Part shown: piece by piece, positions 47,367 through 51,534 of the stretch
Layout: each line of letters starts with the position of its first letter
How positions within the stretch are numbered: position 1 is the stretch's first letter
From: SAR92 clade bacterium
GTDB taxonomy: Bacteria > Pseudomonadota > Gammaproteobacteria > Pseudomonadales > Porticoccaceae
Assembly (NCBI GenBank): GCA_014381985.1
Contig: JACNKP010000037.1
Span: 1-51,603, forward strand
DNA: 51,603 nucleotides
Reading direction: 5' to 3'
Made by a program: the position numbers and the translations under genes
Notes under the pieces: generated by a model
Database searches by the model: none
What the model saw: the letters and a program-made list of their open reading frames with translations, nothing else
What the model was told of the DNA's origin: nothing

Positions 47367-47911
47367 TGTCCTTCATTCTTGATGCCCTAAAAAAAGCGGA
47401 ACGAGATCGGTTGCGAGAAGACCCCAAAAATTTGGATGATTTTGCTAGTGCGCATTGGGATCCATATGAAAAAACGTCTTCAACCTTAGCCCCGCGGAAT
47501 TGGCTGCTGGGTTTTCTGGTGATAATCATTGTTTTCGGGCTGGTGCTGTATATCCAGGGCTGGAAGATTAACCCCACAACTGATATTACTTCAGTTGCGA
47601 CTCTACAGCCGGCGCAAATCGAGGGTTCATTACCTTCCGCAGTCGATATTAAACCTGAGTTGGATGCTGAGCTGTCTCTGTCGTCAGCGGCAGAACAACC
47701 CATTACTGCGGCTACCTCATCGCTGCCAGAACTTATCGTTGCTGGACATATGTTTATTGCAGAGGGCTCAAGTTCCAATAGGTTGTTTATTGGGCAGAGC
47801 AGTTATCGAGAGGGGGATAAAATAAGTCAGGAATGGACGTTAGTGTCTATTCAGCCAGACTATTACATTATCAGCGCTGGTGAAAGCACAGAAATATTAC
47901 CTTATCGTTAG
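47366..47911 (+). CDS. gspB: GspB/ExeB-type secretin assembly protein
   Basis: The 181-residue product starts MSFILDALKKAERDRLRE, the common cytoplasmic signature of GspB/ExeB proteins. It has one membrane segment (46-65), a variable periplasmic linker, and a C-terminal GspB domain with PELIVAGHMFIAEGSSSNRLFI and SYREGDKISQEWTLVSIQ. It partners with GspA. The ATG overlaps the gspA stop by one base, and its own stop overlaps the convergent aceK stop by 4 bp. Confidence 0.9.
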   Translation: MSFILDALKKAERDRLREDPKNLDDFASAHWDPYEKTSSTLAPRNWLLGFLVIIIVFGLVLYIQGWKINPTTDITSVATLQPAQIEGSLPSAVDIKPELDAELSLSSAAEQPITAATSSLPELIVAGHMFIAEGSSSNRLFIGQSSYREGDKISQEWTLVSIQPDYYIISAGESTEILPYR

Positions 47912-49677
47912 TCAGAAAAGACTTCTAGTAATGAACCCTTGCCGCGATCAAATCGTTTGGCGCGCCTATAGGGGAATACGTCAACGACATACCCATCACG
48001 TATCTGAGCTTGTAAATTTTGCCAGAAGCTCATGTCATAGAGATCGCTGTGCATCCCCTCAAATATTTTTCTAGCCTTCATATTGCCAGAGAAAAAGAGT
48101 CTAAATTCTTCTGGAAAAATATCATCAGGGCCCACGGTATACCAGGTACCCGACTGCATTTCTTCTTGCTCGGTTCTGGGTTCGGGGATTTTGCGAAAGT
48201 TACATTTTGTGAGTGTGGCAATTTCGTCATAATCGTAGAACACCACTCTACCATGACGAGTAACGCCAAAGTTTTTAAGTGGCATGTCGCCGGGGAAAAT
48301 ATTTGCCGCCGCGAGTTGTTTAATACAGTTGCCATATTCTTCCATAGCACTTTGCATTTCTTCTTGATTGGCAGTTTCCAAGTAGATGTTAAGTGGCGTC
48401 ATGTAACGCTCTGTATACAGATGCCTAATCAATAATTTATCACCGCGTATTTCTATTTGGGACCCTGCAACGGCTTGTAGTTCCTTTACCAGAGCATCTG
48501 AAAAACGATTTAAGGGAAAAATCAGGTCGTCAAATTCCTGGGTGTCTGCCATTCGGCCGATGCGATCGCTGCGAGATACTAAACGATATTTTTCTCTCAC
48601 GATTTGATGAGTTACTTCCTTAGGTGGAGCAAACTTATCTTTTATAATTTTAAATACAATATTGTAGGACGGAAGGGTGAACACAGTCATAACCATGCCT
48701 TTAATGCCTGGCGCGATAATAAATTGGTCTTCAGAGGTATTTAGGTGACCGACCAACTGACGATAAAATTCTGTTTTAGCGTGTTTAGGAAACCCCATGG
48801 CATTATAGATTTCATAATCTAGCTTATTTGGCATTAAGCTTTTTAGAAAGTGAGCGTATTGGTATGGCAGTGGCGCATCGACCATAAAATGATTATGTGT
48901 AAAACTAAATACCACGCTGAGTTCGTCTACAGTGAATAAGGCAGTATCGACATATAAGCCGCCTTCTTCATTGTTTAGAATAACGAGTACCATAGGGAAA
49001 GTATTATCACCGTCGACCACTCGTCCGACCATATAGGCGGCTTTACCCCGATAGAATGTTGATTCTAAAAGATCAAATTTTACAGCGCTGTGAGGCCCTT
49101 GGATGTATGGGGCCACTTCTTGGTTAAAGACACCCATAATGCAATCAAGATCTAGAGTTAAGTCCTCTTTGGGTAGCGAGAATTCAGATTCTTCAATAAT
49201 TCGCTGAAAGGTTTCTCGAAAGGCTTCTCCTTCATAGCGCACAAAAATACTGTACTCCGCTTCAGGTGCTTCGAGCAACTGCGAAGATAGAACATAGATA
49301 ATATCGTCGCTAATTTTATCGTGATCGTGAATATCACTAAACACAGAATTAAAAAACGTCTCTGCGATCTCAAAGTTAGGAAAATTGAAGACGAGTTGGG
49401 TGTAGGCTGTCTTTGCTTCACTCCAAAGAGAGAGATTGGCGATATCTTTATTAGTCACCATCTCTAAATATTGTACAGTTTGTGTGATTTTATCTTTGTA
49501 CAGTTCTAGCCGTTCAACGTTGGCTTGGCGTACGCCATGCCAGTCGGCTTTCTCATAACGTGCTTTGGCGCTCAATGTTGAATTCAGGTAGTCCGCAAAA
49601 TAGCTACGAAAGCCATTCAAAATGGTTTTCGCCATTCGCCGAGCAGTAGAATTGTGAATTAAAGGTTGAAGTGCCAT
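47908..49677 (-). CDS. aceK: Isocitrate dehydrogenase kinase/phosphatase
   Basis: AceK phosphorylates and dephosphorylates isocitrate dehydrogenase, switching carbon between the TCA cycle and the glyoxylate shunt. The 589-residue product has the family length and blocks such as AVKFDLLESTFYRGKAAYMV, HTEFYRQL-like FYRQLVGHL, and the kinase segment GDMPLKNFGVTRHGRVVFYD. No aceA or aceB lies nearby. Instead it follows a replication-type gene by 20 bp on the same strand, and its stop overlaps gspB on the other strand. Confidence 0.97.
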   Translation of the reverse strand: MALQPLIHNSTARRMAKTILNGFRSYFADYLNSTLSAKARYEKADWHGVRQANVERLELYKDKITQTVQYLEMVTNKDIANLSLWSEAKTAYTQLVFNFPNFEIAETFFNSVFSDIHDHDKISDDIIYVLSSQLLEAPEAEYSIFVRYEGEAFRETFQRIIEESEFSLPKEDLTLDLDCIMGVFNQEVAPYIQGPHSAVKFDLLESTFYRGKAAYMVGRVVDGDNTFPMVLVILNNEEGGLYVDTALFTVDELSVVFSFTHNHFMVDAPLPYQYAHFLKSLMPNKLDYEIYNAMGFPKHAKTEFYRQLVGHLNTSEDQFIIAPGIKGMVMTVFTLPSYNIVFKIIKDKFAPPKEVTHQIVREKYRLVSRSDRIGRMADTQEFDDLIFPLNRFSDALVKELQAVAGSQIEIRGDKLLIRHLYTERYMTPLNIYLETANQEEMQSAMEEYGNCIKQLAAANIFPGDMPLKNFGVTRHGRVVFYDYDEIATLTKCNFRKIPEPRTEQEEMQSGTWYTVGPDDIFPEEFRLFFSGNMKARKIFEGMHSDLYDMSFWQNLQAQIRDGYVVDVFPYRRAKRFDRGKGSLLEVFSD

Positions 49678-49697: not shown

Positions 49698-50363
49698 TTA
49701 GTCGAGCAATTTTTTTAAGTTTTTTAATTGCTGTTGATTGTGTTTTTTAGTGGCCGGCACCTGCGAGACTTCGGGCAATGCTGGGGGTAGGTCAACTGCT
49801 AGCTTTTCACCCGCTATTATACGGTCACAATACTGTTGGTAGATTTCACTATATGCCGGCAGTGCTTTGGTTTCGATAGCATTAGCTAACATATGCCAAC
49901 CGGCATCCCGGCCTGCCAGATAAACGGCTGGATGAGACCAAGATTGCTCGGCTTTTGGGCTACGTTTATTGCACGCTTCTTGATAAGCCTTTCTGGGAGT
50001 CGGCAGTCCCGCTGGCATACCTACATAACGACAGGCGTTGAGCATTTTATGTAAAGTTGGCAGGTATTCACTGTCTGCGATAATTTTTTCTGCCGCCGCG
50101 CAAATGACGTTAGGAGCAAAGTCATTGAGCTTACTCAACCATAATTTTTTAGCGAGTCCAACAGATTCATTTTTATCACCAAAAGCGCTGTAATATTGAT
50201 TGTGGTAATTAGCTCTAAAAAGGGCAAACACCTGATTAATGGCATCAATTAGTTCGGCGCTAGCAGCAGGTGTTGATTTAGGACGCCCAGCTGCGGTCGG
50301 TGAGATCTTCGACGAAGCTGCGATCCCGGATGCGACCTTTTGAATATCCTTGCTGTTTGCCAT
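49698..50363 (-). CDS. Lambda-P-like replication protein (putative helicase loader)
   Basis: The 221-residue product has a low-complexity N-terminus (1-35) and then a core resembling phage lambda P. The pattern is IDAINQVFALFRANYHNQYY (39-58), AKKLWLSKLNDFAPNVICAA (71-90) and SEYLPTLHKMLNACR (98-112). After these come HPAVYLAGRDAGW (144-156) and a basic C-terminal tail. Lambda P delivers DnaB helicase to DNA. The family call is by eye. The gene overlaps the DnaT-repeat gene by 86 bp, so the two are surely cotranscribed. No phage structural genes are nearby. Confidence 0.68.
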   Translation of the reverse strand: MANSKDIQKVASGIAASSKISPTAAGRPKSTPAASAELIDAINQVFALFRANYHNQYYSAFGDKNESVGLAKKLWLSKLNDFAPNVICAAAEKIIADSEYLPTLHKMLNACRYVGMPAGLPTPRKAYQEACNKRSPKAEQSWSHPAVYLAGRDAGWHMLANAIETKALPAYSEIYQQYCDRIIAGEKLAVDLPPALPEVSQVPATKKHNQQQLKNLKKLLD

Positions 50364-51387
50364 TTGAAGTTTCCGTTAACAATTTACTTTGATGCGCCCA
50401 TTGACGCTTCACATATTGTAAGAATTTAGTGCTCCAGGAGCATTGAGGTGTTCCATTTTCTTGCCAGTATAAAACAAACTCGGGGATTATTTTTTCGGCA
50501 AATGGGCGCTCTATATTTGCCATTCTCAAGACATCATACACTGCTTCTTTAGGTTTCCATTGCGCTGTGATTAGTCGGGGCATTGAGTCTTGTTCCATCA
50601 TGCCGTTAAAAAATTGCCATTGTCGTCTTATATGCTGGATAAATTTTGAATCCCAAGTGCTTGATAGATCACCTCGATCTCGCCAATAGAGAATAAATTC
50701 TGGGATGGCGTCATCAATAAAGTTAGTATTAATACCGCCTTTAGTCACCAAGATATCTAGGGCATCTGCCGAAGGTCGCCACTCTCCAGTCACTGAGATT
50801 TCTTTCCGCCTCCGATTTTGAGTGGTTTCAGCTTGCTGCCATTGGCGCCAAACTTCTTTAATATATTTTGATTCCCAGCTGTGTCGGGGCACATTTCGTT
50901 CGCGCCAGTAAGCGACAAATTGTGGTATTTGCTGCTGAGCAAACTCTCGAGTCACACCGAGTTGCGCAAGTTGACGCAGCGCATCCTCGCTCGGCTGCCA
51001 ACTGCCACCAATCGTTTTTGCTGAATGAGGATTACTTGTTGCTGGCGGGGGTGCAAGCCTAGTAGACCCTGGCGATACGGAAATGGAATTTTCGTTAAAG
51101 GCGAAACGAAAATCATGGTGGGCGGTAAAAGGACCTCCACCAATTAATAATAACCCTTTCTCATGCAGGCTTGCCGACAATCGACGAAAGTCATCGTGAC
51201 CCCAAAAGGGTGCCAGCTCGAGAAGTTTATCGGAGGGCAATGTGATCCAGTCAAAACCGCTGCTGCTGACAGGGCTACCATGGCTGATGCATTCCTGCAG
51301 AAGTTGCAGCAATACGGTCTCCTCTAGGCCAATGGTTGCGGCCAAGGTTGGAGAAATAACAATAGGTTTTTCAGGAATTAACGACAT
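50278..51387 (-). CDS. DnaT-like protein with three tandem DnaT-type DNA-binding domains
   Basis: The 369-residue product has an N-terminal domain (about 1-100, winged-helix-like around DWITLPSDKLLELAPFWGHD). Three repeats spaced 73-74 residues follow, starting at Trp-130, Trp-203 and Trp-277. Each reads W-x-P, then IP-x-F-x-x-YW, then W-x-SK and ends RQW, the pattern of the DnaT DNA-binding domain. E. coli DnaT has a single copy and acts in primosome assembly at restart. A basic tail overlaps the next gene by 86 bp. The ATG at 51387 follows GAGTAATATC. Confidence 0.78.
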   Translation of the reverse strand: MSLIPEKPIVISPTLAATIGLEETVLLQLLQECISHGSPVSSSGFDWITLPSDKLLELAPFWGHDDFRRLSASLHEKGLLLIGGGPFTAHHDFRFAFNENSISVSPGSTRLAPPPATSNPHSAKTIGGSWQPSEDALRQLAQLGVTREFAQQQIPQFVAYWRERNVPRHSWESKYIKEVWRQWQQAETTQNRRRKEISVTGEWRPSADALDILVTKGGINTNFIDDAIPEFILYWRDRGDLSSTWDSKFIQHIRRQWQFFNGMMEQDSMPRLITAQWKPKEAVYDVLRMANIERPFAEKIIPEFVLYWQENGTPQCSWSTKFLQYVKRQWAHQSKLLTETSNGKQQGYSKGRIRDRSFVEDLTDRSWAS

Positions 51388-51499: not shown

Positions 51500-51534
51500 T
51501 TCGAATGGCATTAGTACTGTACATAATACCAGTA
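51500..51534 (+). promoter_or_regulatory. LexA-box-like operator overlapping a candidate radA promoter
   Basis: At 51515-51534 the sequence reads TA-CTGT-N8-CCAG-TA, one base from the symmetric gammaproteobacterial LexA consensus CTGT-N8-ACAG, and it keeps the flanking TA bases. A possible promoter, -35 TTCGAA (51500-51505), 16 bp, -10 CATAAT (51522-51527), would have its -10 inside the box, as expected for repression. The site is 40 bp before the radA start. Confidence 0.6.

Follow-up and report, generated by a model that had tools for sequence, protein, structure and literature searches.

Several described systems resemble the locus reported here. A pair of chromosomal proteins, DopC and DopE, was reportedly found in the Cellvibrionales in a study of 2017, to which the names and the derivation of both proteins from O and P of phage lambda are also said to go back. 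According to a 2016 paper, Cellvibrionales possess neither dna[CI] nor dciA; its authors raise the question of a different operator having taken over. In a 2026 paper DopE is named as a family of loaders. For the lambda proteins, one paper cites suggestions that the C-terminal region of O binds P, that the N-terminal part of P binds O and that the C-terminal part of P binds DnaB. The core of the present finding, a viral loader replacing DciA in this order, is already known. The pair of genes described below is very probably the chromosomal loader of the replicative helicase in its lineage, of the DopC-DopE kind and acting by the mechanism proposed below, which has taken the place of DciA.

The window, meaning the whole stretch of 51,603 nucleotides that was analysed, comes from a SAR92 clade bacterium. 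It carries on its reverse strand a gene for a lambda-P-type helicase loader of 221 amino acids (49698..50363; DopE-type, assigned by Pfam, PHROG and fold), preceded by a gene for a DnaT-repeat initiator-type protein of 369 amino acids with three DnaT domains (50278..51387; DopC-type). Both open reading frames and their overlap of 86 bp (50278..50363, reverse strand), as given in a sequence-only reading of this DNA, were confirmed, and since both proteins and the overlap were found again in relatives, the pair is not a chance occurrence. Judging by the overlap, the two genes would be cotranscribed. The housekeeping setting proposed in that reading also held, with aceK (47908..49677, reverse strand) directly downstream of the loader gene and radA (TIGR00416) divergent from the pair, just past the end of the window.

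A named collection yielded 491 relatives, the best 80 of which were used. Among these best 80 of 491, radA is divergent at a distance of up to 1.5 kb in 66 loci; of the remainder, seven have no RadA match despite enough upstream sequence, two have radA farther away and three stretches are too short to judge. In the same 80 of 491, the DnaT-repeat protein is matched in 78 loci and aceK lies downstream at up to 1.5 kb in 50. By title most of them are Porticoccaceae, SAR92 or HTCC2207, and Cellvibrionales; Halieaceae, Gilvimarinus and Simiduia are among the others, some read just Gammaproteobacteria or Pseudomonadales, and one contig Flavobacteriaceae. The closest loci (96% identity) bear the title Porticoccaceae, a family of the Cellvibrionales. 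Because of this position of radA in 66 of the best 80 of 491, the pair is considered a fixed chromosomal locus.

The likeness of the small protein to lambda P stood up to profile searches, with hmmscan giving a match to PF06992 (Phage_lambda_P; E-value 2.8e-7) of 30.9 bits against a curated cut-off of 26 and a match to PHROG 109, "P-like helicase loader" (E-value 7.9e-16). The gene escaped a scan of the genome that used PF06992 only but is detected by hmmscan of the protein and by a protein query. The protein also has the fold of lambda P, with an N-terminal domain (residues 37-109; 50037..50255, reverse strand) folding like SPP1 G39P and a C-terminal part (residues 119-221; 49701..50009, reverse strand) matching that of lambda P, where residues 103-233 bind DnaB.

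The large protein had been likened to DnaT, and three PF17948 domains were indeed found in it (E-value 6.4e-65), at 50818..51012 (E-value 9.7e-20), 50614..50790 (E-value 7.4e-24) and 50386..50571 (E-value 7.4e-22) of the reverse strand. In a predicted model they are preceded by a winged-helix-like N-terminal domain at about residues 12-98 (51094..51354, reverse strand), which has a weak DnaD-like PHROG match (E-value 0.0015). Foldseek with this protein returned weak matches, none under an E-value of 0.001, and a profile comparison with lambda O found no similarity. With the DnaT equivalog PRK02854 the DnaT domain is shared and the whole-protein cut-off was not reached (10.4 bits vs 201). Across 126 chromosomal loci, a set that includes the window's own and counts at least one genome twice, three DnaT repeats were counted in 111, against 12 with a single repeat, 2 with two and 1 with four. 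In the side branches L035-L045 and L052 the protein has just one DnaT domain and a length of about 150-180 or 280-340 amino acids; its tail is of the same kind (DYQW in L052), and no RadA match lies within these stretches.

The C-terminus of the large protein carries a conserved tail, LTDRSWAS (50281..50304, reverse strand), of the motif class of the lambda O tail LTNTDW; according to its record, lambda O terminates in LTNTDWIYGVDL. Scored over the final 30 residues, the pattern [DN]x[STD]W, set after tails had been viewed, occurs in 124 of the 126 chromosomal loci, the two misses being DRGW and DYQW. ORFs upstream of P were collected from 85 phage, plasmid and viral loci, giving 52 distinct ORFs of at least 110 amino acids and, after removal of those at least 40% identical at the end, 38 dereplicated ones. 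The pattern is present in 16 of these 38, as compared to control values of 1/323 for other ORFs of the same loci and 3/303 for internal windows of the same proteins, and to 1.3 predicted by shuffles. The strict motif is absent from the other 22 ORFs, some of which were probably mis-picked. Annotated O-like proteins beside P match strictly in four of six cases, those of a Spartinivicinus plasmid (TQTNW) and Marinomonas P12026 being the exceptions. The tail of the DnaT-repeat protein is read here as a putative docking peptide for the P-type loader. Its likeness to the tails of lambda O and of phage proteins is possibly new; a limited literature collection yielded no mention of the tail strings.

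The bases of the overlap encode both the tail motif of the large protein and, in a shifted frame, an SPTAAG motif of the loader. The DNA of the tail is the start of the loader gene in another frame, with an equal frame offset in 124 of the 126 loci. It is worth mentioning that two conserved motifs, LTDxSWA and SxTxAG, share out-of-frame bases in this way (50278-50363 of the window; 126 loci).

Among 115 genomes of the order, P-type genes were detected in 71, DnaT in 70 (all of which have P) and DciA in 35, with 33 above the cut-off. P and DciA occur together in one genome only (G060), where P adjoins a different kind of initiator (Fisher p 4e-19, kinship ignored). From this mutual exclusion we infer that the pair has the same role as DciA. 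The genome of the window has DnaB and PriA, and queries with DciA (PF05258), E. coli DnaC and PriC found no gene for any of them there; DnaC matches were obtained in 12 of the 115 genomes at an E-value of 1e-5. Consecutive genes of this genome are secA, one for an M23 peptidase and lpxC; the gap before lpxC is less than 50 bp, and two relatives carry a DciA-like ORF between the M23-peptidase gene and lpxC; the dciA place is empty. Neither P nor DciA was detected in 10 of the 115 genomes, five of which are 75-89% complete. Two genomes (G035 and G109) have an ORF of 150-156 amino acids between the M23-peptidase gene and lpxC whose sole Pfam match is DciA below cut-off (E-values 0.005 and 0.03), and these ORFs look like diverged DciA. 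Three genomes that are 96-100% complete (G043, G080 and G088) yielded neither a P-type gene nor a DnaC match nor any DciA over the cut-off; their DciA may have diverged or fallen into an assembly gap, or they may use another loader. Stops reported within the P match of G096 were discounted, a 206-amino-acid open frame being present there.

Between radA and the pair lies a LexA-box-like palindrome (51517..51532), a putative regulatory site with a score of 5, separated by about 43 bp from the start of radA and by about 130 bp from the pair. In the window, no full SOS consensus was found with up to three mismatches allowed. CTG-N10-CAG occurs within 400 bp upstream in 44 of the 126 loci, and 24 of the 126 have a site scoring at least 6, vs 0.005 per 400 bp elsewhere in these loci. 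The 24 loci with a strong box are mostly of Porticoccaceae type. The SOS link suggested as an option by the sequence-only reading was upheld in part: a palindrome is present, but only these 24 loci reach a score of 6, and the site of the window scores lower and is nearer to radA than to the pair. The palindrome may serve radA alone.

With regard to its history, a quick tree of 116 P sequences placed 37 chromosomal rows and one phage contig (L060) in one branch (SH-aLRT 91), outside of which are the 76 remaining rows from phages, plasmids and viruses and two mobile-type P copies from genomes. Two loci from bacterial genomes, L053 and L054, were placed among the viral rows. Left out of the tree were identical rows, alternate loci of the radA-type main group of 36 rows, and three of the 86 viral, phage or plasmid rows, whose coverage was below 120 profile positions. 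A clade of the 37 chromosomal rows without L060 is weakly rejected (p 0.03), and one of the 25 main-group rows without it is not rejected (p 0.57). L060 has Mu-type portal and head genes, and its P may represent a return from host to phage or a relative of the donor. On this contig (L060:3513-4549) the P of the chromosomal branch stands behind a short ORF like the C-terminal part of lambda O with the sequence LTDCSWA. Among 85 loci from phages, plasmids or viruses, 7 have a single-DnaT-domain protein in front of P, and therefore the DnaT-P pair itself may be of phage origin. The chromosomal pair appears to go back to an old uptake from lambda-like phages. One acquisition followed by a gain of repeats is the simplest reading, though not proven. 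Scans with lambda O and P22 gp12 gave near-copies, which were left out of the counts, and DnaC relatives in viral contigs, sought as a contrast set, amounted to one locus.

In the mechanism proposed for the pair, DopE would bind DnaB via its C-terminal part and open the ring, by analogy with lambda P. The winged-helix-like N-terminal domain and three tandem DnaT repeats of DopC may form a pre-joined short filament, which would mark single-stranded DNA at oriC and perhaps also at restarting forks, and docking of DopE-DnaB would fall to the LTDxSWA tail, much as P may be docked by the tail of lambda O. A different role, in replication restart only, with a PriA-DnaT-like primosome and with loading at the origin left to DnaA-DnaB themselves or to some unknown loader, would agree with the DnaT repeats of the large protein (E. 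coli DnaT being a restart protein), with the presence of PriA where PriC was not found and with the LexA-like box near radA in some loci. However, the pair stands in for DciA in the phylogenetic pattern and the genome of the window yielded neither DciA nor an E. coli-type DnaC, making a restart-only role improbable. Much less probable again, to the point of being negligible, is the idea of a recent prophage remnant or of a mobile segment confined to one strain. The phage relatives of the loader, the phage-type loci with a single-DnaT protein upstream of P and the chromosomal-type P of L060 could be taken in its favour, but the pair is distributed over the order, radA lies beside it in most of the best 80 of 491 relatives, its DNA has no match in E. 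coli genomes and tblastn of the three-repeat protein against 50,697 phage records gave no match at an E-value of 0.01; a prophage remnant is ruled out by the synteny. The domestication of a viral loader, as first suggested from the sequence, is instead borne out by the conserved synteny, the near-exclusivity with DciA, the empty dciA place and the failure of E. coli DnaC to find a match in this genome.

As to the tail, it could contact DnaB or another replication protein and not the P-type loader. This is suggested by P22 gp18 and three relatives, which have an internal W segment at least 20 residues from the end and a DnaB-type helicase as neighbour. Against it, the terminal form is absent from the last 20 residues of all 13 O-like proteins without a detected P, as compared to its presence in 15 of the 38 upstream ORFs (p 0.006; the 20-residue limit was chosen after P22 had been viewed), and the C-terminal region of lambda O has, as noted, been suggested to bind P. 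Over the last 30 residues the figures are 16/38 and 1/13, the one being P22 gp18 (p 0.04). A looser pattern gives 22/38 vs 3/13 within 20 residues (p 0.05) and 23/38 vs 6/13 within 30 (p 0.52), and the contrast is weak under that pattern. Contact with DnaB or another protein is overall rather unlikely, and docking of the P-type loader is preferred here.

A second type of tail is found in E. coli DnaT, which ends QIPPGFRG (dnaT, L220:979-1518). A DNA pattern for QIPxGFRG followed by a stop gave at least 120 stretches, 80 of which were taken as loci (L406-L485). Comparison of the final 60 residues divided these into six groups of 42, 31, 3, 2, 1 and 1. In these 80 of at least 120, the upstream protein matches lambda O in 42 and DnaT in 3; the next gene matches DnaC in 2, and in no case was there a match to lambda P, the P profile or P22 gp12. 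The end of E. coli DnaT is seen to recur on O-like phage initiators with no P or DnaB gene detected adjacent. An occurrence of QIPxGFRG across several unrelated bodies was considered and rejected, four of five full-length group representatives being partly alike and just the DnaT-like one standing apart. QIPxGFRG is a possible docking tail for the host DnaC/DnaB system and is regarded as a lead; a structure paper of 2026 favours the N-terminal domain of DnaT for recruitment. We tentatively suggest, at somewhat less than even probability, that initiators with dissimilar bodies recruit loaders via short partner-specific C-terminal peptides, the LTDxSW type serving P-type loaders (lambda O, many phage initiators and DopC) and QIPxGFRG serving host DnaC/DnaB (E. 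coli DnaT and a group of O-like phage initiators without P), with the docking tail carried along when a phage loader is domesticated. If true, this would point to the way in which P is recruited by lambda O, and DnaB/DnaC by DnaT.

The locus is well supported as an example of a viral protein having replaced a core replication factor, the former dciA place being left empty; that empty place, the tail motif and the repeat-number series are results of the present analysis. The pair fits the published DopC-DopE by its description. Shared with that system are a chromosomal lambda-P-type gene and a partner gene in an order described as lacking DnaC/I and DciA; the locus here is conserved outside prophages, has an initiator-type gene directly upstream of the loader gene, lacks DciA and belongs to the Cellvibrionales. 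DciA itself is alike in role, to judge from the mutual exclusion, but the pair is of another family and at another locus. E. coli DnaT-DnaC has likewise a DnaT-domain protein followed by a loader gene, differing in having one DnaT domain where there are three repeats here, DnaC in place of a P-type loader and the tail QIPPGFRG in place of LTDRSWA. Phage lambda O-P shares with the pair the P fold, the order of initiator then loader and the C-terminal tail motif. However, the initiator here consists of a winged-helix-like domain and DnaT repeats with no profile similarity to lambda O, and the pair is chromosomal, at a fixed locus.
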